64,000 bases of DNA from Candidatus Neomarinimicrobiota bacterium (GCA_018651745.1 JABIDL010000010.1:62001-126000); one strand, 5' to 3'. Counted from the first letter of the stretch, positions 5,687 to 56,456 are shown. Notes: generated from the letters alone by a model not told the origin. Numbers and translations are program-made.

Positions 5687-6241
5687 ATGTTTAATGACAA
5701 AAACGAATATGTAACTCTACTTCGCGATGTTGATGCCACTCAAGTCCCTATGGGAACGAAGGCTACCTTAAAAAAGGGAGACCGGGGACAAATCACCCAA
5801 GCGCTTGGAGGAAATTTCACAATCCTGTATCACGGAAACCTATTCCAAATTGATAAAAAAGATGCCGAGGCCATTGGAAAAAAAATAGAGGAAGAGGCCG
5901 CACCGCTTCCCATTAATCCGAATGGTAATGTAAATGAAGATAGTATTTGGGATGTAATGAAAACTTGCTACGATCCGGAAATTCCGGTTAATATTGTTGA
6001 ACTTGGGCTTATTTATTCCTGTGAAATATCCAGCTTAGATGATGGTGGCACTGAGGTGAATATAAAAATGACACTGACGGCTCCCGGTTGTGGAATGGGA
6101 CACATTATTGCAGAGGAAGTCAACCAAAAAATAATGAACATCTCGGGCGTGTCAGAAGTACATGTAGAACTAGTTTGGGATCCGCCATGGAATCAAATGA
6201 TGATGTCGGAGTCAGCTCGTCTTCATCTTGGAATGTTATGA
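5687..6241 (+). CDS. sufT: SufT, MIP18/DUF59 family Fe-S maturation factor
   Basis: 184 residues. The C-terminal half (about 80-175) is a DUF59/MIP18 domain with EIPVNIVELGLIY, TLTAPGCGMG (Cys135) and the closing VELVWDPPWNQMMMSESAR, as in SufT/PaaD-like proteins. The N-terminal 75 residues form a small beta-rich region also seen in SufT-type proteins. The family helps deliver Fe-S clusters to target proteins. It lies three bases after sufU and its tga stop overlaps the sufS ATG at 6238-6241, so it is part of the same transcription unit. Confidence 0.9.
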   Translation: MFNDKNEYVTLLRDVDATQVPMGTKATLKKGDRGQITQALGGNFTILYHGNLFQIDKKDAEAIGKKIEEEAAPLPINPNGNVNEDSIWDVMKTCYDPEIPVNIVELGLIYSCEISSLDDGGTEVNIKMTLTAPGCGMGHIIAEEVNQKIMNISGVSEVHVELVWDPPWNQMMMSESARLHLGML

Positions 6242-7449
6242 GTTCGAATTTCGATCCCACATCTATTCGAGAAGATTTCCCGATTTTTTCTGTGCATCCG
6301 GACCTCGTTTATCTGGACAACGCTGCTACAAGCCAAACGCCCAAACATGTCACAAATGCTGTCTTAAAATATTATGAAACATTCAATGCAAATGTTCACC
6401 GTACTATTTATTCTATTGGGAATAAAGCAACACAAGCTTTTGAACATGCTAGAGAAAATGTAGCGGACTTTATTAACTCAAAAGAACATCGCTCAATTGT
6501 TTTTACCAAGAGTGCCACGGAGGCTATTAATTTGGTCGCCAATGCATGGGGAAGGAAAAATCTAGCTAACGGTGACGAAATTCTAATCACTGAAATGGAG
6601 CACCATAGTAATATCGTTCCATGGCAATTGATTGCGAAAGAAACCGACGCAAATCTCAAATATATTCCGATTACAAAAAATGGCGAACTTGAAAATTGGG
6701 AATCTTGCATTTCGGACAAAACGAAAATTGTTGCAATTACACACCAGTCAAATGTATTTGGCACTATTAATCCAATTGAAAAAATTGTAGAAAAAGCACA
6801 TTCTTTCGGTGCTGTTGTTTTGGTGGATGCCGCTCAAAGCGTTCCACACTCAAAAGTGGACGTACAAAAACTGGGGTGCGACTTTCTTGTTTTTTCCGGA
6901 CATAAAATGCTAGGGCCAACCGGCGTGGGTGTGCTCTATGGAAAACCCGATTTATTAGAAGGAATGGATCCATTCCTTGGCGGCGGTGAAATGATTAAAA
7001 CCGTATCCATGGAATCTTCCACTTGGAATGACATTCCGCATAAATTTGAAGCCGGAACACCCAATATTGCTCAAACAATCGGGCTTGGGACAGCCATTGA
7101 TTATCTTAATGAAATTGGTATGGGTACTATTCACGACTACGAGCAGGAATTGCTCATTTATACTTTGAGCATTTTTGAAAATAATCCTGCCATTACTGTA
7201 TATGGAAAATCTAAAAAAAGAGCTGGTGCCTTGAGTTTTAATCTTGAAAACATTCATCCACACGATGTAGCACAATTTCTCGATAACGACGGAATTGCAA
7301 TCCGTGCGGGGCATCATTGCGCACAACCGATTATGAAAAAGATCGGCGTATCAGCAACCTGCAGGGCGAGTTTTTATATGTACACCACAAAGGAAGATAT
7401 TCATCAGTTAGCAGAAAGTCTCGAAAAAATTGAATCTATTTTTGCTTGA
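6238..7449 (+). CDS. sufS: SufS, group II cysteine desulfurase
   Basis: 403 residues from the ATG at 6238, chosen because it forms an ATGA overlap with sufT and gives the standard N-terminus (IREDFPIF, then LVYLDNAATSQTP). An upstream in-frame ATG at 6088 would only read through sufT in another frame. The PLP lysine is Lys223 in FSGHKMLGPTG. The persulfide cysteine is Cys361 in RAGHHCAQP, and RASFYMYTT follows. The enzyme converts cysteine to alanine and hands sulfur to SufU. It is the last gene of the SUF operon seen here. Confidence 0.96.
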   Translation: MSSNFDPTSIREDFPIFSVHPDLVYLDNAATSQTPKHVTNAVLKYYETFNANVHRTIYSIGNKATQAFEHARENVADFINSKEHRSIVFTKSATEAINLVANAWGRKNLANGDEILITEMEHHSNIVPWQLIAKETDANLKYIPITKNGELENWESCISDKTKIVAITHQSNVFGTINPIEKIVEKAHSFGAVVLVDAAQSVPHSKVDVQKLGCDFLVFSGHKMLGPTGVGVLYGKPDLLEGMDPFLGGGEMIKTVSMESSTWNDIPHKFEAGTPNIAQTIGLGTAIDYLNEIGMGTIHDYEQELLIYTLSIFENNPAITVYGKSKKRAGALSFNLENIHPHDVAQFLDNDGIAIRAGHHCAQPIMKKIGVSATCRASFYMYTTKEDIHQLAESLEKIESIFA

Positions 7450-7628: not shown

Positions 7629-7901
7629 ATGGCTAAGAAAAAATCTGAAGACATAAATAAAAATAAATATCTTGTTACGCTTCGCTGGTACATCGAGACT
7701 GACGAAGATCTGGTCGCAGGTGCAAAAGAATCCGATGATAAAATCCTCGACATTCTGCGGCATCGGACAGACGGAAGAAAAACGTGTTCAACTTGTCCAA
7801 CGCGCCATCAAGAAGGATATGCTATTTTAGATTATCATTATTTTATGGGTAATAAGCCAACTTATATGTCTGTGGATAAAATTTTGGAAGATCCTAAGTA
7901 A
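7629..7901 (+). CDS. Small hypothetical protein with a CxxC motif
   Basis: 90 residues, not recognised. It starts at ATG 7629 with an agggag site seven bases upstream. The N-terminus is lysine-rich. The middle carries CSTCPTRHQEGYAILDYHYF, where Cys-x2-Cys and a nearby His could bind metal, though a full four-ligand site is not obvious. There is no signal peptide or membrane segment, so it is probably cytoplasmic. It precedes a DUF2480-like gene and a deaminase on the same strand with a 28-base gap, so they may be co-transcribed. Confidence 0.7.
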   Translation: MAKKKSEDINKNKYLVTLRWYIETDEDLVAGAKESDDKILDILRHRTDGRKTCSTCPTRHQEGYAILDYHYFMGNKPTYMSVDKILEDPK

Positions 7902-7929
7902 TGCAAAGGCGCTACGGATTTAAAAAGTT

Positions 7930-8181
7930 ATGGTAACTATCAGTATGGATAATTTCCTCGACGGCGGGATTTTGAAGGAAAAATCATTCCGGAAACAGGC
8001 AGATGAAACAGACTGGTCGCAATACGAGGGCGAGCGGGTGTTGATTAAAGGCTGTGCAGAAGTGGCCATTCCCACATGGGCCTATTGTATATTAGCTGCT
8101 AAACTTTCCCAAGTTGCGGATCATGTTTTGTATGGTGAAGCATGTGCAGCAGTGAAAATTTTTGATCGAAAAGAATTATGA
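7930..8181 (+). CDS. DUF2480-like small protein
   Basis: 83 residues. The segment ILKEKSFRKQADETDWSQY, then RVLIKGCAEVAIPTWAYCIL and VLYGEACAAVKIF, resembles the DUF2480 family of Bacteroidetes, which is usually about twice as long; this looks like a single-unit version. Two cysteines (in KGC and GEAC) are in the positions conserved in that family. Function is unknown. The start could also be the ATG at 7945. The stop overlaps the next gene's ATG by four bases, which supports both as real genes. Confidence 0.65.
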   Translation: MVTISMDNFLDGGILKEKSFRKQADETDWSQYEGERVLIKGCAEVAIPTWAYCILAAKLSQVADHVLYGEACAAVKIFDRKEL

Positions 8182-47640: not shown

Positions 47641-47744
47641 TGACGGCCTTTGGACAGACTGAACCGCCCCTTCTTGGGGACTGTCCTTCGTCAATCACGT
47701 ATATCATCCGCCCTAACAGAAAGCAATGCGTTTTGCGCAATTGC
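47641..47744 (+). promoter_or_regulatory. Structured 5' leader of the RNase G gene
   Basis: Three nested helices are visible: TGACG (47641-47645) with CGTCA (47689-47693), GGACAG (47652-47657) with CTGTCC (47681-47686), and CCCC (47667-47670) with GGGG (47676-47679). A second hairpin, GCAATGCG (47723-47730) with CGCAATTGC (47736-47744), ends two bases before the aaaggag site. RNase E/G genes in enterobacteria are autoregulated through leader structure; the same role here is inference. It does not match an RNA family I recognise. The rest of the 325-base spacer to the metH aptamer shows nothing clear. Confidence 0.6.
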
Positions 47745-47757
47745 TAAAGGAGCGAAC

Positions 47758-49329
47758 ATGAAGAAAGAAATCTATATAAACGAAAGTATGGGTGAAACCC
47801 GTATTGGTATTCTCGAAGATGACCGATTGGTAGAGGTTTACGTTGAGAAACAAGATCAGCAACGAATGGTCGGGAATATATATAAAGGTAAAGTTGAAAA
47901 TGTTATTCCCGGCATGCAGGCTGCCTTTGTGGATATTGGGCATGAGATAAATGCATTTTTACCATTTTCAGAAATTGAGAACACCGATTATTTAATCGAA
48001 GAAGAAGACGATGATAGGACCAATGGCAAAGGTCGGAAAACAGGGAAAAACAGTCGGAATAGAAAAAATGATGGAAATATTCGTGTTGATCTGACAACCG
48101 GTCAAGATATTTACGTCCAAGTCATTAAAGAACCATTTGCCGGCAAGGGGCCAAGAGTAACCACTGAAGTCGCCATACCAGGGAGATTGCTTGTTCTGGT
48201 ACCAAATGGAAACTATATCGGTATTTCAAAAAAGATTTGGGATAAATACGAGAGAAGACGACTAAAAGGGATTACATCTCAATTAAAAGATAGAGGGTTT
48301 GGGCTTATAGTCCGAACTGTTGCCGATGGTAAAAGCGAAGAGCTTATCCGAAACGATTATGAAAACCTCATGGATGCCTGGGTAAAAATGGAATCAAAAT
48401 CAAAACGTACCAAAGAACCTGGGATAGTCTTCGAGGATATGGAGACTGCGTCTAGTGTCATTCGTGATTTACTTACTTTTGATGTCAATAAGATCGTAAT
48501 CGATTCAAAAAAAATATATCGAAAGATCCAGAATTATCTAGAGGATGTAGCACCAAACATGGCGTCTCGTTTGGAGAGATATAAAATCAAGGCACCTCTT
48601 TTCGAGAGTATGGGCATTGAGGCGGAATTGGATAAACTACTTCGCCCAAAAGTTTGGCTAAAAAGTGGTGCTTACCTTATTATTGAAAAGACTGAAGCAA
48701 TGGTGGTTGTAGATGTGAATAGCGGGCGTTTTATTGGGAAAAAACAACATGAAGAAAATTCCTTAAAAATAAATCTTGAGACCACTCGGGAAATCGCTCG
48801 CCAACTTCGATTACGTGATTTATCCGGCCTGATCGTGATAGATTTTATTGACATGCGGGAAGAATCTAACCGAAAAAAAGTGTACCACGAGCTTCGGAAA
48901 GAATTGCGGAAAGATCGCGCAAAGGTCGCTGTCAGTCAAATATCTGAGTTTGGACTATTGGAAATGACACGTCAACGCATTAGAGTAAGCTTATTAGATT
49001 CTATGAGCGAAGGCTGTCCAACTTGTAGGGGGGCCGGTAGGATTTTATCTAGAGAAACACTCATTACGAGAATTGATCATTGGCTTAGGCGATATAAAGG
49101 AAAGTTCAAAGGAATCAAATTAAAATTAGAAATTCATCCAGATATCGGAAATTATTTATTAGAAGAAAAACGTAAAGTTTTACGCGGATTAATGTGGCAA
49201 AATTTTGTCCACATCTCTATCGAAAACAATTTGGAAGTGGGTCGTGGTGAATTCAGATTCATTTCTGTAAAAACCGGAAAAGACCTCACCAAAGAGCTAG
49301 GGGTTGAAAAGGACAAAACTTCAGCATAA
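47758..49329 (+). CDS. rng: Ribonuclease E/G family protein (RNase G-like)
   Basis: 523 residues from ATG 47758, chosen for its aaaggagc site and the family start KKEIYINES. An S1 domain covers about 37-130 (VGNIYKGKVENVIPGMQAAFVDIG) and has a lysine/arginine/asparagine-rich insertion. The catalytic region has VVVDVNSGRFIGKKQ, LRDLSGLIVIDFIDM, and RQRIRVSLL; the zinc link is CPTCRGAGR. It processes rRNA and decays mRNA. The C-terminal degradosome scaffold of RNase E is absent. Followed by rplU 27 bases later, a common arrangement. Confidence 0.95.
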   Translation: MKKEIYINESMGETRIGILEDDRLVEVYVEKQDQQRMVGNIYKGKVENVIPGMQAAFVDIGHEINAFLPFSEIENTDYLIEEEDDDRTNGKGRKTGKNSRNRKNDGNIRVDLTTGQDIYVQVIKEPFAGKGPRVTTEVAIPGRLLVLVPNGNYIGISKKIWDKYERRRLKGITSQLKDRGFGLIVRTVADGKSEELIRNDYENLMDAWVKMESKSKRTKEPGIVFEDMETASSVIRDLLTFDVNKIVIDSKKIYRKIQNYLEDVAPNMASRLERYKIKAPLFESMGIEAELDKLLRPKVWLKSGAYLIIEKTEAMVVVDVNSGRFIGKKQHEENSLKINLETTREIARQLRLRDLSGLIVIDFIDMREESNRKKVYHELRKELRKDRAKVAVSQISEFGLLEMTRQRIRVSLLDSMSEGCPTCRGAGRILSRETLITRIDHWLRRYKGKFKGIKLKLEIHPDIGNYLLEEKRKVLRGLMWQNFVHISIENNLEVGRGEFRFISVKTGKDLTKELGVEKDKTSA

Positions 49330-49356
49330 ATTCGCCGGCTTTATTAAGGAATAATT

Positions 49357-49737
49357 ATGTATGCAATCGTAAATATCGCAGGAAAACAAATCCGAGTTGA
49401 AAAGGGCGCTAAAGTAAAGGTCGCAAGCTTGGAAGGTGATCCTGGAACAAAAGTACAATTTGACTCCGTCCTTCTTACTGATGACGGAAAAAAGGTTCAA
49501 ACTGGCAATCCAACCATCAAAGGTGCATCAGTTTCTGCTAGTATTCTTGAACATGGTCGGGATAAAAAAATCCTGATCTACAAGAAAAAAAGACGGAAAG
49601 GATACAATCGGAAAAATGGACATCGTCAGGGGTTTACCCTATTGCAGATTGATAAAATTGGAATATCAGCTGTTAAGAAAAAGGCTAGCCCTAAAAAAGA
49701 AGTCAAACCGGACAATAATGAAAAAGAGGATAGTTAA
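49357..49737 (+). CDS. rplU: 50S ribosomal protein L21
   Basis: 126 residues. Sequence features are [70 protein letters not shown] and LQIDKIGI. The last 23 residues are a lysine-rich acidic-ended tail beyond the standard 100-residue form. Two bases separate it from rpmA. Confidence 0.97.
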
Positions 49738-49739
49738 TC

Positions 49740-49994
49740 ATGGCACATAAAAAAGGAATGGGAAGCTCAAGAAATGGGCGTGATTCTAATGCAAAAAATC
49801 TTGGCGTAAAAGTTGCCGACGGGCAAACAATCCTTTCTGGAGGAATTATTCTAAAACAACGCGGAACAAAATTTCATCCGGGGCAAAATGTTCGCCGAGC
49901 TGGTGACGATTCACTTTTCGCAATAGCAGATGGCATCGTCAAATTCAGTACTAAAGGTAGTAACAAAAAGCTTGTTAATGTCATTACTGACTAA
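49740..49994 (+). CDS. rpmA: 50S ribosomal protein L27
   Basis: 84 residues, standard length. [20 protein letters not shown] is the N-terminal arm that reaches the peptidyl transferase centre, followed by [24 protein letters not shown] and VGRAGDD-like [12 protein letters not shown]. No N-terminal cleavable extension. It follows rplU by two bases and ends at a terminator. Confidence 0.97.
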
Positions 49995-50018
49995 CATCAA
50001 ATAATAAAAAGTGATTCT

Positions 50019-50055
50019 AAAAACCCTGTCTCCTTTATTGAGATGGGGTTTTTAA
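50019..50055 (+). terminator. Rho-independent terminator after rpmA
   Basis: AAAAACCC with the inner TCTC (50029-50032) pairs with GAGA and GGGGTTTTT, ending in a T run near 50053. It separates the rng-rplU-rpmA unit from mdh. Confidence 0.85.
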
Positions 50056-50073
50056 ATTCTACCTGAATTTTGA

Positions 50074-51024
<951 letters not shown>

Positions 51025-51087
51025 TCCAAATATAATTTAAACCAGAAGCCGTAATATTTAACAATTCGGTTTCTAGTAAGTTTATTG

Positions 51088-51112
51088 ACAACCATTTTTC
51101 ATATGGTGAGTC
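51088..51112 (+). promoter_or_regulatory. Possible promoter of the envelope operon (ECF-like or sigma-70 -35)
   Basis: ACAACC (51088-51093) and GTC (51110-51112) have the AAC...GTC layout with 17 bases between, as in ECF-sigma promoters, which would mean autoregulation. The overlapping TTGACA at 51085-51090 could instead be a sigma-70 -35 box, but no good -10 follows. Confidence 0.3.
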
Positions 51113-51137
51113 AAACGCTCTGTGAAAACATTACAAA

Positions 51138-51695
51138 TTGGACGACAAGACCACACAACTAATCATCAACGCCCAAGCTGGAGATTCAGATTCTTTCCAC
51201 CAGCTCGTTGCATTACATGATAGCCAAATTATGACATTGGCATTTCACCTTTCAAAAAACCAACACGATGCTGAAGACCTTTATCAGGATGTTTTCATGA
51301 AAGCATGGAAAAATATATCATCATTTCGGATCGAAAGTGAATTGTACACTTGGCTTTATCGAATTACGGTTAATACTTTTTTAACCCATCAGAAAAAAAG
51401 AACAAAAATGAATATTCAGGATGTGGATTCAGATTCCGGGTATGATCCACTTGACTGGATTTCAAATTCTTCCGATAAAAATAAACATTCCGAAGAAATT
51501 ATTTCTGCGGTTCAAACAGCTGTGAAATCATTACCGGATAAACAAAAAACTGTATTTATCCTTAAACATATGCAGGAATTGAAAATTCGTGAAATAGCAA
51601 ACATCATGGATATTTCTGAAGGCACCATAAAAAAATATTTGTTTAGAGCAATGGAAAAAATTCGCATTCAGCTCAAGGAATACAGATATGTCTAA
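51138..51695 (+). CDS. ECF-type RNA polymerase sigma factor
   Basis: 185 residues from TTG 51138; no in-frame ATG lies nearby upstream and the TTG gives the standard N-terminus. Region 2 has FHQLVALHDSQIMTLAFHLSKNQHDAEDLYQDVFMKAWKNISSF and TWLYRITVNTFL. Region 4 has SLPDKQKTVFILKHMQELKIREIANIMDISEGTIKKYLFRAMEKIR. It directs RNA polymerase to a small regulon. Its stop overlaps the next gene by eight bases, where an anti-sigma factor is expected, and three envelope genes follow. Confidence 0.93.
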   Translation: MDDKTTQLIINAQAGDSDSFHQLVALHDSQIMTLAFHLSKNQHDAEDLYQDVFMKAWKNISSFRIESELYTWLYRITVNTFLTHQKKRTKMNIQDVDSDSGYDPLDWISNSSDKNKHSEEIISAVQTAVKSLPDKQKTVFILKHMQELKIREIANIMDISEGTIKKYLFRAMEKIRIQLKEYRYV

Positions 51696-52647
51696 ACTCA
51701 ACGAAACTTTAAAAGAAAAGGCGTACTTCTATATTTCTGATGAAATGTCAGAAAAGGATCGGCTAGAATTCGAAAAAACACTTGGGACCGATAAAGCACT
51801 CTATCAATTTGTGGAAGAAATCGCATCATCTCTTAACTTGACAAAAACTACTTTTACAATACGGCCAACTCATGAATTTCTTCAAAGTCAACAGTTGATA
51901 CTTCGAAACACCTTAGAACAGGAAAAATCACAAACAAATCGGTGGGCTATCCCAGATTATTTCATGCGCTTCGCCAATGTACGCCAACCGATGTGGGCGG
52001 TAGCAGCCTATGTAGCAATTGCTTTTTTTATTGGTCAATTATCTTTCAACTCTTCAATTCACAAGGTTGAATCAACGTCAACTAATTATCCAAACATTTT
52101 GGAACTGATCGAGACTGGCGCCTTAAAGCAGGTAAATATAAAAGAAATAAATGGCGCAGGTTCCATCCAATTTGGAATGAGAACTTCCAAAATTTTCGAT
52201 ATTAGCGGAAATCCTGAAGACGACTATATTCAAAAGATTCTCCTTTATCTTCTCCTGAAGGATACAAATCCGGGGAACCGACTAAAAGCGGTAAAATACC
52301 TGAATGATGTTCCCCAGCATGATACCATGAAAATGGCACTAATGTCCTCTATTCTTTCAGATCCAAACCCGGGAGTCCGATTGCGATCTCTGAAATTGCT
52401 CAACAAATATAAAGTTGATGATCTTCTTTCAAATGCTTGCCTGAAAGTTTTATTAGAGGATGAAAATGAAGCGGTTCGAATGGGTTCTCTTGAAATTTTA
52501 GCTAAATATCCATCAAACAATATTGTACCTGCTCTTCAGGTAGTTTCCATGATGGATGAAAACGAATTCATTCAAAACCGATCTATAGAAATTCTTGATT
52601 CTATTGAGGAATTTCAAATTGGTGAAAAAATTGAGTCATTGCAATGA
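51688..52647 (+). CDS. HEAT-repeat membrane protein, candidate anti-sigma factor
   Basis: 319 residues. The N-terminus (YFYISDEMSEKDRLEFEKTLGTD) is a zinc-free version of an anti-sigma cytoplasmic domain. One membrane span lies at about 101-120 (PMWAVAAYVAIAFFIGQLSF). The periplasmic part (about 180-315) has HEAT-like repeats: NRLKAVKYLNDV, PGVRLRSLKLLNKY, EAVRMGSLEILAKY, IQNRSIEILDSI. The position immediately after the sigma gene is typical of anti-sigma factors; the HEAT part might sense envelope components. The role is an inference. Confidence 0.78.
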   Translation: MSKLNETLKEKAYFYISDEMSEKDRLEFEKTLGTDKALYQFVEEIASSLNLTKTTFTIRPTHEFLQSQQLILRNTLEQEKSQTNRWAIPDYFMRFANVRQPMWAVAAYVAIAFFIGQLSFNSSIHKVESTSTNYPNILELIETGALKQVNIKEINGAGSIQFGMRTSKIFDISGNPEDDYIQKILLYLLLKDTNPGNRLKAVKYLNDVPQHDTMKMALMSSILSDPNPGVRLRSLKLLNKYKVDDLLSNACLKVLLEDENEAVRMGSLEILAKYPSNNIVPALQVVSMMDENEFIQNRSIEILDSIEEFQIGEKIESLQ

Positions 52648-53888
52648 AGATAATTTTAACAATAATTATGTTAAATCTTCAAGTGAGTATCGCCCAAGAT
52701 ATTTTGAAATCATTTAACTTGGATGGGTTTAACCGATTTAAAGGAAAAACCACGTATCATTTTAAATCGAAATTAGGTGATTTAAATGAACGATCTTTAA
52801 TTGTAAACCGCGTAAAAGGAGATGTTATTATTCAGGGTACTGCCGGGGACGACATAATCATTATTGAAACTATGAATATTAAATCACTTTCTAAAAAGAA
52901 AGCTGAAAAATTATTCGAACAATCAAAATCAAAAGTGTCTCGCAATCTCAATTCTGATCTCTTTAAGATCGAAGGTATTCTTATGAAATCCCCCAGGGTT
53001 AATTTTAATTACGCTATTGAATTGCCAAGTCATTTTAACCTGGAATTACACACATCAGGTGGAAATATCGGATGTGATCAAATTGTAGGCGCCATTCAAT
53101 GCCAGACTAGCGGCGGCGATATCGAGCTTGTGAATTTATCTGGACGCGTAGACGGGAAAACATCCGGAGGTGATATTTTAATTAAGGATTCAGAAGGGTC
53201 ATTTACAGTAACAACTTCGGGTGGAGAAATTGAAATTGCCAGAGTAGATGGATTATTAATCGTCAAAACATTTGGCGGAGATATTGACGCAAACCATATT
53301 ACCGGACAACTGACTGTTACTACAAGCGGGGGAGATATTGAACTATCATATATTGAAGGAGAAAAAACTGTAGCAAAAACTTTCGGTGGAGACATTGATG
53401 TCGATAATATTAAAGGATATCTGGATGTAATAACATCGGGTGGAGACATTGAAATATATTCTTTGAATGGTGCATTATACGCGGCGACATCCGGCGGAGA
53501 TATTGAACTAAATCACATTGACGGAAACATCAATGCATCCACGCAGGGTGGATCCGTTTATGGTAAATATATCAGCGGATCAATCAATGCCACATCCTCT
53601 GGTGGAGATTTAAATATTATAAAAACTGGGGCTAACAATGATCAGGATCATTCCATCAGTCTCAAAGCTTTATCCGGCGATATTGAACTCGTTTTACCTA
53701 TCAATTTTTCATCCACCATTGATGCAATGGTTACGGGAACACACTCATCTAGGGCTATTGAATCTGAATTTCCAATCACTATCACCCTTGGTGAAAACCA
53801 CGTGAAGGGATCAGCAGTAATCGGAGATGGAAATCATCCGGTTACACTCAAATCAGCCTATGGCTCAATTATCATTGAAAGGGATTGA
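52644..53888 (+). CDS. DUF4097-type beta-helix repeat protein
   Basis: 414 residues with a short signal peptide (to about IAQD). About twelve repeats of 20-22 residues carry SGGDIE-type turns: TSGGNIGC, TSGGDIELVNL, TSGGDILIKD, TSGGEIEIARV, TFGGDIDANHI, TSGGDIELSYI, and so on to LSGDIELVLP. This is the DUF4097 (putative adhesin) pattern, a right-handed beta-solenoid likely facing the periplasm. Function unknown, but similar genes often accompany stress-responsive regulators. It overlaps the anti-sigma candidate by four bases. Confidence 0.85.
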   Translation: MKIILTIIMLNLQVSIAQDILKSFNLDGFNRFKGKTTYHFKSKLGDLNERSLIVNRVKGDVIIQGTAGDDIIIIETMNIKSLSKKKAEKLFEQSKSKVSRNLNSDLFKIEGILMKSPRVNFNYAIELPSHFNLELHTSGGNIGCDQIVGAIQCQTSGGDIELVNLSGRVDGKTSGGDILIKDSEGSFTVTTSGGEIEIARVDGLLIVKTFGGDIDANHITGQLTVTTSGGDIELSYIEGEKTVAKTFGGDIDVDNIKGYLDVITSGGDIEIYSLNGALYAATSGGDIELNHIDGNINASTQGGSVYGKYISGSINATSSGGDLNIIKTGANNDQDHSISLKALSGDIELVLPINFSSTIDAMVTGTHSSRAIESEFPITITLGENHVKGSAVIGDGNHPVTLKSAYGSIIIERD

Positions 53889-53891
53889 AAT

Positions 53892-55502
53892 ATGAAATAT
53901 TTTATGTTAGTTACATTTGTACTGCCAATACTGTTGGTAGCTCAAAGAGTGGACGAGGTCGTTGAAGAGATTGGAGAAGGTGCCGAAGAAGTTGGAGAGC
54001 AACTGGGTGAAACATTTAAAGATAATCATGAAAACGAATATGATGATGTGAATGATGAACCAAAAACTGCAATTGAATGGCAGCATGAAGAGGACACTAT
54101 CACGGACGAAATCATTTTTTATAAAGATCATGTGATTGTTTCGGGAGAAGTTTCTTATGATAATATCCGGATCATCGGCGGCGATTTGATTGTGGATGGT
54201 ACCGTCAAAGGCAAGATTACCTTGATCGGAGGTGACGCTAGGTTGAATGAAACTGCAGTGTTGGATGGTCAAATTGTTGTGGTTGGCGGAAAAGTCCAGA
54301 AACATGGCAATGTGGTAATCAATGGGAAAATCATTGAAAGCAATATAAAAGAAGGATTGCTGTACCGCGAAACTGATCCTGAGGAAAATATTCAGGGTAC
54401 CTCTGATTTTGAATTGGAAGAGCGGTCGGAACGTGCGAGAAAAAGCTGGATTCATCCTGAGGGACTCACCTTTGTATATAATAGAAATGAAGGACTTCTT
54501 CTTAATTTTTTTCACAAACGCTGGGATCGCCGTTCCCTGTCTAGTTTTAGGATTACATCATCGATGGGTGTTCGTATGAAGCCACATCATACGCCCGATT
54601 ATACAGGGAGACTAACCATGGAAAAAACGTTTGGGCTTAACCGAAACATTACCGTATTCGGAAGTGGATTTAAAGAAAGCCGAACCGATGATGCTTACCG
54701 ATTGCCACAGATAGAAAACACCTTAGCATCTTTCCTTGGCAAACAGGATTTTTACGACCGATGGGATGAGATTGGATGGGAGGCTGGTTTTGGATTAGAT
54801 ATTTCCCGGTTGAAAATTAAAGCTGCGTATAGCGAGGCTAGTCATGATTCAATATCTGTCGCAGATATCTGGAGTTTGTTTGAAAAAAACAGAATTTTGA
54901 GAGAAAATGTCCCGGTTATTCATTTGGAAAAAGTGAAAACAACCGAGGTGACCGCTGCATTCAGAACCAAAGATTACCATCCGTTAAATAATGGACTCGC
55001 ACTTTTTGCTCAATCTGAATGGTATAAAACCAATTTGGATTCAGGACAGCAAGTTAATAGAATTATGGCTATGGGAATCCTGAATTGGGAAATTGCCGAA
55101 GGGATTGTTCTCAGAACCCGTTTGATGGGTGGCACATCCACTGGCGACCTCCTCCCGCACCGGGATTTCGGCGTTGGTGGAATTGGATCTGTGAGCGCAC
55201 ATCCTTACAAAGATCAAACAGGAAACCAATTTGTACAAAGCAATGTGGAATTTATCATTACACCTGAATTCACTGATTCAGAATGGTTGGTAAAATTATT
55301 TGCAGATGGGGGTCATGCGTGGGACAAATCTGACTATGCATTTGAGATTGAAAAAATAAAAACCTCCGCCATTACGTCGGTTGGTATTGGTATTGGAAAC
55401 GGTGACGGGGATGATGATCTCAACTTTATAGTAAACATAGCCAAACCAATGAATGCTGGTGGGGAAATTGAAACAACCGTAAGAGTTAATTACAATTTTT
55501 AA
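53892..55502 (+). CDS. Bactofilin-like domain fused to an outer-membrane beta-barrel
   Basis: 536 residues with a signal peptide (ending LLVAQ). An acidic Val/Glu/Gly-rich linker (VDEVVEEIGEGAEEVGEQLG) is followed at about 80-150 by a bactofilin-like set of short repeats (IIGGDLIVDGTVKGKITLIGG; AVLDGQIVVVGGKVQKHG). The C-terminal 350 residues look like a BamA/surface-antigen barrel (LRTRLMGGTSTGD, FGVGGIGSVSAHP, FADGGHAWDKSDY) ending VRVNYNF with terminal Phe. I do not know this combination. It may assemble at the outer membrane. Three bases after the DUF4097 gene. Confidence 0.72.
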   Translation: MKYFMLVTFVLPILLVAQRVDEVVEEIGEGAEEVGEQLGETFKDNHENEYDDVNDEPKTAIEWQHEEDTITDEIIFYKDHVIVSGEVSYDNIRIIGGDLIVDGTVKGKITLIGGDARLNETAVLDGQIVVVGGKVQKHGNVVINGKIIESNIKEGLLYRETDPEENIQGTSDFELEERSERARKSWIHPEGLTFVYNRNEGLLLNFFHKRWDRRSLSSFRITSSMGVRMKPHHTPDYTGRLTMEKTFGLNRNITVFGSGFKESRTDDAYRLPQIENTLASFLGKQDFYDRWDEIGWEAGFGLDISRLKIKAAYSEASHDSISVADIWSLFEKNRILRENVPVIHLEKVKTTEVTAAFRTKDYHPLNNGLALFAQSEWYKTNLDSGQQVNRIMAMGILNWEIAEGIVLRTRLMGGTSTGDLLPHRDFGVGGIGSVSAHPYKDQTGNQFVQSNVEFIITPEFTDSEWLVKLFADGGHAWDKSDYAFEIEKIKTSAITSVGIGIGNGDGDDDLNFIVNIAKPMNAGGEIETTVRVNYNF

Positions 55503-55514
55503 GGATGTTTTAAG

Positions 55515-56456
55515 ATGAGGCCAAATCATTATTTCATTTCAATCCTTTTTTCCATAAGTCTTTCATTCGGACAAGGATTACGGGAATTGCCAAAACTGGA
55601 TAGGAATGTTCCATCCTCTGATTCAACGCAATATGATTCAGATAATAAAGTACGTGATTATTATCATTTTCGGATGGAAGATGATGAAATGTTAGATGTC
55701 AATGTTCAATATGGGTTTGGGGAGCTCAATCTAAAAGCCAATCAACATGATCACCGATTTGATGGCTCTGTTTTATATTTACCAAGTTTTGTTACTCCAA
55801 ATATCACATATCAAACAACAGCCGGCGAAGGGTCGCTATTTATTGGACTGCCTCAAAAATCGGGGAAAACGTATCCTACTGCATTCCATAGGTGGAAAAG
55901 CGAAATTGGCAATGAATTTCATAATGAAGCTGAATTTATGCTACCGCCTGCCATCCCCTTAAATTTAACTGTTGATTTCGGGCTCGGAGAAGCAGAAGTA
56001 GATTTTTCTACCCTTACAATAAACTATTTGGATATGAATTGCGGGCTCGGGACCATGGAAGTTTCAATGACAAGGCCAAACAAAACCATCGCAGAATATC
56101 TTACTATTGATACCGGGCTGGGCGAATTTGAAGGTGAAGGATTAGGAAATTTTCGCGCGAAACGAGTTTCCATCGACGTAGGTATGGGATCAGCCGAAAT
56201 TGATATGAGAGGAAAAAATCTTGTTGATATGGAAATAGATATTTCGGTAGGATTGGGTTCTATGGAATTAATTTTACCCGAAAAAGCAAATATTCGCATT
56301 GCTGCAGATCATAATTTTTTATCTTCTGTAACTGTCCATAACCTCCAGAAAAGTAGGAGCGGCTGGGTGAGTGATGAATGGAAAGAAGGACTTCCAACTA
56401 TTAATGTAGATGCAAACGTTGGCATGGGATCGATTGAGATTAGAGTTCGGAACTAG
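55515..56456 (+). CDS. Toast-rack/LiaF-like secreted protein
   Basis: 313 residues. A signal peptide (to about SFGQ) is followed by alternating glycine-rich beta units: LDVNVQYGFGELNLKA, LTVDFGLGEAEVDF, LDMNCGLGTMEVSM, IDTGLGEFEGEGLGNF, IDVGMGSAEIDM, ISVGLGSMELILPE, NVGMGSIEIRVRN. This resembles the toast-rack and LiaF C-terminal domains of envelope-stress systems. It closes the five-gene operon, and its tag stop overlaps that of the convergent Rieske gene. Confidence 0.8.
   Translation: MRPNHYFISILFSISLSFGQGLRELPKLDRNVPSSDSTQYDSDNKVRDYYHFRMEDDEMLDVNVQYGFGELNLKANQHDHRFDGSVLYLPSFVTPNITYQTTAGEGSLFIGLPQKSGKTYPTAFHRWKSEIGNEFHNEAEFMLPPAIPLNLTVDFGLGEAEVDFSTLTINYLDMNCGLGTMEVSMTRPNKTIAEYLTIDTGLGEFEGEGLGNFRAKRVSIDVGMGSAEIDMRGKNLVDMEIDISVGLGSMELILPEKANIRIAADHNFLSSVTVHNLQKSRSGWVSDEWKEGLPTINVDANVGMGSIEIRVRN

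Follow-up and report, generated by a model that had tools for sequence, protein, structure and literature searches.

An extracytoplasmic function (ECF) sigma factor with a predicted HEAT-repeat anti-sigma factor and exported toast-rack and Omp85-like proteins: a probable envelope-stress operon of Candidatus Neomarinimicrobiota

The sigma-E/RseA pair of Escherichia coli relies on a single-pass class I anti-sigma factor. In Bacillus subtilis, yvlABCD is at least partly controlled by sigma-W and carries a PspC protein together with YvlB, a protein with a toast-rack domain (PMC12791056), while DUF4097 is common to YvlB and LiaG (PMC9239133). Ravi et al. reported in 2024 toast-rack operons free of PspA as well as gene contexts in which a sigma factor is linked to a toast-rack, and proposed an intracellular place for these proteins (PMC11237479). 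The Omp85 superfamily comprises ten architectures, and POTRA domains occur in most but not all of its subfamilies (PMC4104836). Herein, we describe a five-gene operon on the + strand of a 64,000-nucleotide stretch of Candidatus Neomarinimicrobiota DNA (GCA_018651745.1 JABIDL010000010.1:62001-126000; this whole stretch is called the window), which most likely encodes an autoregulated envelope-stress system composed of an ECF sigma factor and a class I anti-sigma factor.

Open reading frame (ORF) calling in this genome (G000, 1.86 Mb) recovered five genes at exactly the coordinates given in a preliminary description of the window, overlapping or near-abutting with successive gaps of -8, -4, +3 and +12 nt. 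The first (51138..51695, 185 aa) encodes an ECF sigma factor, as had been proposed: it is built of regions sigma2 and sigma4 only (Sigma70_r2 9e-17, Sigma70_r4_2 1e-15), the NCBIfam sigma70-ECF model matches over its cut-off, and the nearest solved chain is SigW (5wuq_A, E 1e-25). TTG or GTG frequently replaces ATG as the start codon of these sigma genes, with TTG in the window copy and its close relatives.

The second gene (51688..52647, 319 aa) overlaps the sigma gene by 8 nt, and the two are paired across the phylum. Its product, previously described as a membrane HEAT-repeat protein in the anti-sigma position, is best read from sequence and structural model as a predicted class I anti-sigma factor with a four-helix N-terminal domain, one membrane helix and extracytoplasmic HEAT repeats. 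Class I anti-sigma domains (ASDI) consist of a three-helix bundle, a linker and a fourth helix that binds sigma2 (PMC7406223). The AlphaFold model of the HEAT protein (mean predicted local distance difference test (pLDDT) 75, N-terminal helix blocks 62-88) has this layout in its putative anti-sigma domain (residues 6-81, 51703..51930), where helices 6-16, 22-34 and 36-55 are followed by a linker and helix 62-81. A predicted transmembrane helix spans residues 102-119 (51991..52044), with the top hydrophobicity window at 102. The HEAT repeats occupy residues 179-318 (52222..52641); Pfam HEAT_2 matches the window copy at 7e-9 and is found in all 21 aligned members of the family, and the best Foldseek matches of the domain are HEAT/alphaRep proteins (E 2e-3). 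Since lysines and arginines are more numerous before the membrane helix than after it (means of 4.0 vs 1.0 in 21 sequences), the N terminus is predicted to lie inside and the HEAT domain outside the inner membrane. A single in-frame stop occurs inside the HEAT matches of six genomes (G201, G205, G210, G211, G212, G115).

The window copy shows no significant Pfam anti-sigma match, and its NCBIfam match lies far below the cut-off, as might be expected of a scaffold standing beside sigma by chance, with sigma controlled otherwise. Such an arrangement is very unlikely in view of the gene overlap, the phylum-wide pairing and the four-helix N terminus. Moreover, the profile of the N-terminal domain matches solved anti-sigma factors, namely 3hug_B (RslA; E 7.5e-6) and RsiW 5wuq_C (E 0.0085), and distant homologues of the HEAT protein carry the motif H-x3-C-x2-C, with zf-HC2 over cut-off in three of them. 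The best-conserved cytoplasmic residues are located in helix 4 (L65, Q68, R69, L72 and R73, in window numbering of the family consensus).

A predicted ECF-type promoter on the + strand (51086..51115) precedes the operon, with TGACAACC as the -35 element, 16 nt of spacer and GTCAAA as the -10 element, 52 nt before the sigma start codon. The corresponding motif, TGACAACY-N15-17-GTC, precedes sigma in 49 of the 65 loci, compared with 0.06 in shuffles, typically at a distance of about 51 nt from the start codon; spacers of 14-18 nt were permitted in the search, and every match upstream of sigma had 16 or 17. Across 19 other genomes with the operon, 76 motif matches were counted vs 29 with the reversed pattern and 10 with a scrambled -35. 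The excess vanishes in 20 genomes that lack an intact sigma/HEAT pair (15 motif matches vs 34 reversed; Fisher p 1.3e-6), and it depends on the presence of sigma. Of the non-operon sites, 39/64 are in promoter position, vs 2/10 scrambled sites. Pure coincidence as the origin of the stringent motif was ruled out by the scrambled, reversed and sigma-less controls. The pattern points to autoregulation of sigma through a group-specific promoter.

For the candidate regulon, 46 proteins encoded behind non-operon sites were scanned, and the Pfam counts are DUF5916 11, CBM9_1 10, Yip1 8, PspC 4, DUF4097 4, Peptidase_M1 4, Peptidase_M3 2 and MacB_PCD 2, with single cases of S46, S9, TldD, DUF2807 and Rce1-like proteins; members from close genera are not independent in these counts. 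One PspC gene (L216) is a weaker candidate, as its start lies about 340 nt from the site, farther than in the others. Stand-alone bactofilin-like genes (L036, L037, L056, L057) are preceded at 55-76 nt by the motif or a near variant of it in all four cases examined, and each product combines a signal peptide with several membrane helices; two of the four belong to family f13, where the operon has lost the barrel gene. A toast-rack-family gene is present in every sigma-HEAT locus, and PspC is found behind the motif in some genomes only. The PspA/IM30 protein was not found in G000 nor in 11 of the 13 genomes tested. The presence of further envelope genes behind the same promoter strengthens the original suggestion of envelope sensing or repair; the idea that the system is self-contained does not strictly hold, as the inferred regulon extends to other loci. 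The composition of this gene set also bears on whether sigma might govern cell-surface or attachment functions and glycan handling instead of a stress response. Among the unlinked targets, DUF5916 with a CBM9-like domain is the most frequent, and DUF2807, in Pfam a putative adhesin head, occurs once. However, the PspC, Yip1, DUF4097, bactofilin-like, peptidase and MacB-type genes suit envelope maintenance better, and SigW is nearest to sigma among solved chains, so that a surface and glycan role is unlikely.

To assess conservation, the ORFs of fetched neighbourhoods were searched with family profiles, in a survey confined to Neomarinimicrobiota. Of 245 genomes of the phylum, 92 gave a match to the profile of the HEAT protein, as did 50 of the 94 high-quality ones, and a scan of genome contigs gave three loci, all in Neomarinimicrobiota. 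The five-gene order recurs across the phylum: among 65 loci with sigma and HEAT genes, 39 are complete, 11 are without the barrel gene, 7 without the toast-rack gene, 5 stop after DUF4097 and 3 pass from HEAT directly to the toast-rack gene, part of these shortened loci being contig ends. The loci were retrieved with barrel or HEAT queries, so the presence of the query gene is not independent evidence, whereas that of the other genes is. In the tree of sigma and HEAT proteins the majority of families are monophyletic, which fits mainly vertical inheritance, and distances correlate more closely between sigma and HEAT (0.92) than between these two and DUF4097 (0.80 and 0.82). The window comes from a metagenome-assembled genome with compact gene spacing, where five unrelated genes could come to lie side by side; with the order kept in many families while the flanks change, and with one promoter before the set, this is close to inconceivable, and chance neighbourhood was ruled out. 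The genes upstream of the operon in the window (47650-51024) are an rne-like gene, rplU, rpmA and a malate/lactate dehydrogenase gene, and the flanks of other families differ.

The three remaining genes encode proteins with signal-peptide-like N termini, which were assessed by eye from the sequence. The third gene of the operon (52644..53888, 414 aa) encodes a DUF4097 protein (E 2e-15), a predicted exported beta-solenoid of the toast-rack family. The SGGDIE repeats noticed earlier in this protein are confirmed as eleven 18-residue units at positions 137-318 (53052..53651, period 18-19) of the form [ST]xGG[DENS]; a comparison by sequence with solved structures gave no match. The fifth gene (55515..56456, 313 aa) encodes a toast-rack protein with Toast_rack_N at 2e-6, over cut-off, and LiaF-like_C at 3e-4, under cut-off. 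LiaF-like_C is found at E <= 0.01 in 20/20 members of the family, and the family profile matches the solved toast-rack structure 4qrk at E 5e-31. The protein had been described as toast-rack/LiaF-like; the toast-rack assignment holds, and the LiaF-type membrane region is absent.

The fourth gene (53892..55502, 536 aa) encodes an exported fusion that, judged from its model, resembles a sixteen-strand Omp85 barrel in which a bactofilin-like solenoid replaces the POTRA arm. In the AlphaFold model, residues 194-536 (54471..55499) form sixteen strands, and Foldseek gave 116 PDB matches at E <= 1e-3, the best being BamA 8xnb (2e-12), with a TMt of 0.72 to the TamA barrel 8us4. The Omp85 model of Pfam matches 10 of 27 family members and scores just under its cut-off of 24 in the window copy (E 4.5e-5, 23.6 bits). 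The solenoid, a run of regular short strands at residues 72-150 (54105..54341), stands where POTRA domains would be expected, and no POTRA match was found. Of the fusion announced in the preliminary description, the barrel is borne out by its BamA/TamA-like model; the bactofilin part finds support in 8 of the 27 members (profile PF04519, best E 1.5e-4), the window copy being unmatched. The signal-peptide-like N terminus and the barrel argue against a cytoplasmic location of the protein, as would be expected of a bactofilin polymer. Among 61 relatives, 33 have a match to the barrel protein, in a few cases to the short solenoid part only. In L025, an additional small ORF (6207-6587), four-helix-bundle-like by eye, lies between the barrel and toast-rack genes.

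At least one toast-rack-family gene follows sigma-HEAT in 65/65 loci, as for an obligate partner. This invites the view that the exported proteins are sensors, with toast-rack solenoids and barrel holding the HEAT domain as RseB does RseA, and that sigma mainly adjusts the dose of its sensor. However, exported genes persist where no intact sigma/HEAT pair is left: DUF4097 and barrel in L024 and L035, DUF4097 and toast-rack in L060, and only the barrel in L031 and L032. A purely sensory function, which we regard as a credible second choice, short of probable, is also at odds with the occurrence of this promoter ahead of unlinked toast-rack and bactofilin-like genes; a dual role of the exported proteins, as sensor and output, is possible. 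The barrel can persist after the other genes of the operon are lost, being its sole survivor in L031 (3647-5107) and L032 (3000-4481), between a malate dehydrogenase and a Rieske-type gene. In G014 the decayed operon (L039) retains an intact barrel gene and a fossil promoter, which is one of the 15 motif matches in sigma-less genomes, and a deletion scar at 7845-8141 has left the N-terminal part of sigma and the C-terminal end of DUF4097 as one in-frame fusion.

Several observations weigh against the reading as an autoregulated sigma/anti-sigma stress system. In families f19 and f20 the anti-sigma domain has lost helices 1-3 and is recognizable by helix 4 only, with the motif W-L-x2-Q-R-x2-L, and the anti-sigma matches of the window lineage are modest, its zinc ligands being absent. 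The stringent motif has two matches in G000, one before the operon and one upstream of a DUF5916 gene, and the regulon in this genome may be limited to these. In addition, the 29 matches of the reversed control mean that roughly a third of the individual sites may have arisen by chance. The anti-sigma proteins of f19 and f20 (HEAT genes, L094-L103) constitute a natural test of the sigma-binding part. The DUF5916 gene that carries the second G000 site is again preceded by the motif in G002 and, in G001, by the near match GTCCAA.

The gene order, the domains, the conserved promoter with its dependence on sigma and the identity of the downstream genes are results of computation, on which a mechanism for the proposed stress system can be drawn. 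From sequence, we infer sigma binding, membrane topology, signal, release step and effector functions as follows. In the resting state, the HEAT protein would hold sigma at the inner membrane through its anti-sigma domain, while the periplasm-facing HEAT repeats would sense disturbance of the envelope, the likeliest cue being altered binding of HEAT to envelope proteins or a changed state of the exported partners. Sigma would then be released, by proteolysis or by conformational change, and transcribe from TGACAACY-N15-17-GTC, its own operon first and other envelope genes thereafter. The outputs would be the exported toast-rack beta-solenoids and the Omp85-like barrel with its bactofilin-like periplasmic arm; in relatives, PspC, Yip1, bactofilin-like membrane proteins, DUF5916 outer-membrane proteins, peptidases and MacB-type permeases may join them, with the presumed effect of stabilizing membranes and of clearing or assembling envelope proteins. 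A more specific proposal can be entertained tentatively, as doubtful: a dedicated outer-membrane repair circuit, in which the HEAT repeats would read whether solenoid and barrel are free or assembled and the response would be a stress-specific, POTRA-less Omp85 machine with a bactofilin-like solenoid.

The control of envelope stress has been described in few phyla; for a largely uncultured one, a candidate regulator now comes with its promoter sequence, predicted regulon and likely sensor. The poorly understood DUF4097, toast-rack, DUF5916, Yip1 and bactofilin-like families acquire roles that can be put to the test, a POTRA-less Omp85 architecture is exposed, and toast-rack and PspC genes are tied to an ECF sigma factor beyond Firmicutes, mostly without PspA. 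Literature searches on Marinimicrobia with ECF sigma or envelope stress and on anti-sigma factors with HEAT repeats returned no matching description, the main ECF classification lying outside their scope, which agrees with the earlier impression of an undescribed unit; a search for Omp85 with bactofilin returned no paper naming both.

Compared with known systems, the operon resembles sigma-W/RsiW of B. subtilis in its SigW-nearest ECF sigma factor, its predicted membrane-bound class I anti-sigma factor and its toast-rack (DUF4097) and PspC outputs. It differs in that the toast-rack genes are inside the sigma operon, the anti-sigma factor bears a predicted extracytoplasmic HEAT domain and an Omp85-like protein is included. 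Toast-rack proteins recall Psp and Lia, as does PspC, which several genomes have downstream of this promoter. The system departs from Psp in that the core protein PspA was found neither in G000 nor in 11/13 genomes tested, and from Lia in that the operon lacks LiaS/LiaR and LiaI-LiaF-TM. In contrast to the intracellular prediction of Ravi et al. (PMC11237479), the signal-peptide-like N termini argue for export of the toast-racks in this lineage. With sigma-E/RseA of E. coli it shares an ECF sigma factor, a predicted single-pass class I anti-sigma factor and an output that looks like outer-membrane biogenesis, whereas HEAT repeats take the place of the periplasmic domain of RseA, RseB is absent and the output barrel has no POTRA. 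The sixteen-strand barrel matches BamA and TamA as in the Omp85 superfamily, whereas the bactofilin-like solenoid in place of POTRA differs from the architectures surveyed in PMC4104836, where bactofilin is unmentioned. The system works like sigma-W, Psp and Lia; by the features tested it is no member of Psp or Lia, and its new parts are the proposed HEAT sensor and the fusion of a solenoid with an Omp85-like barrel.

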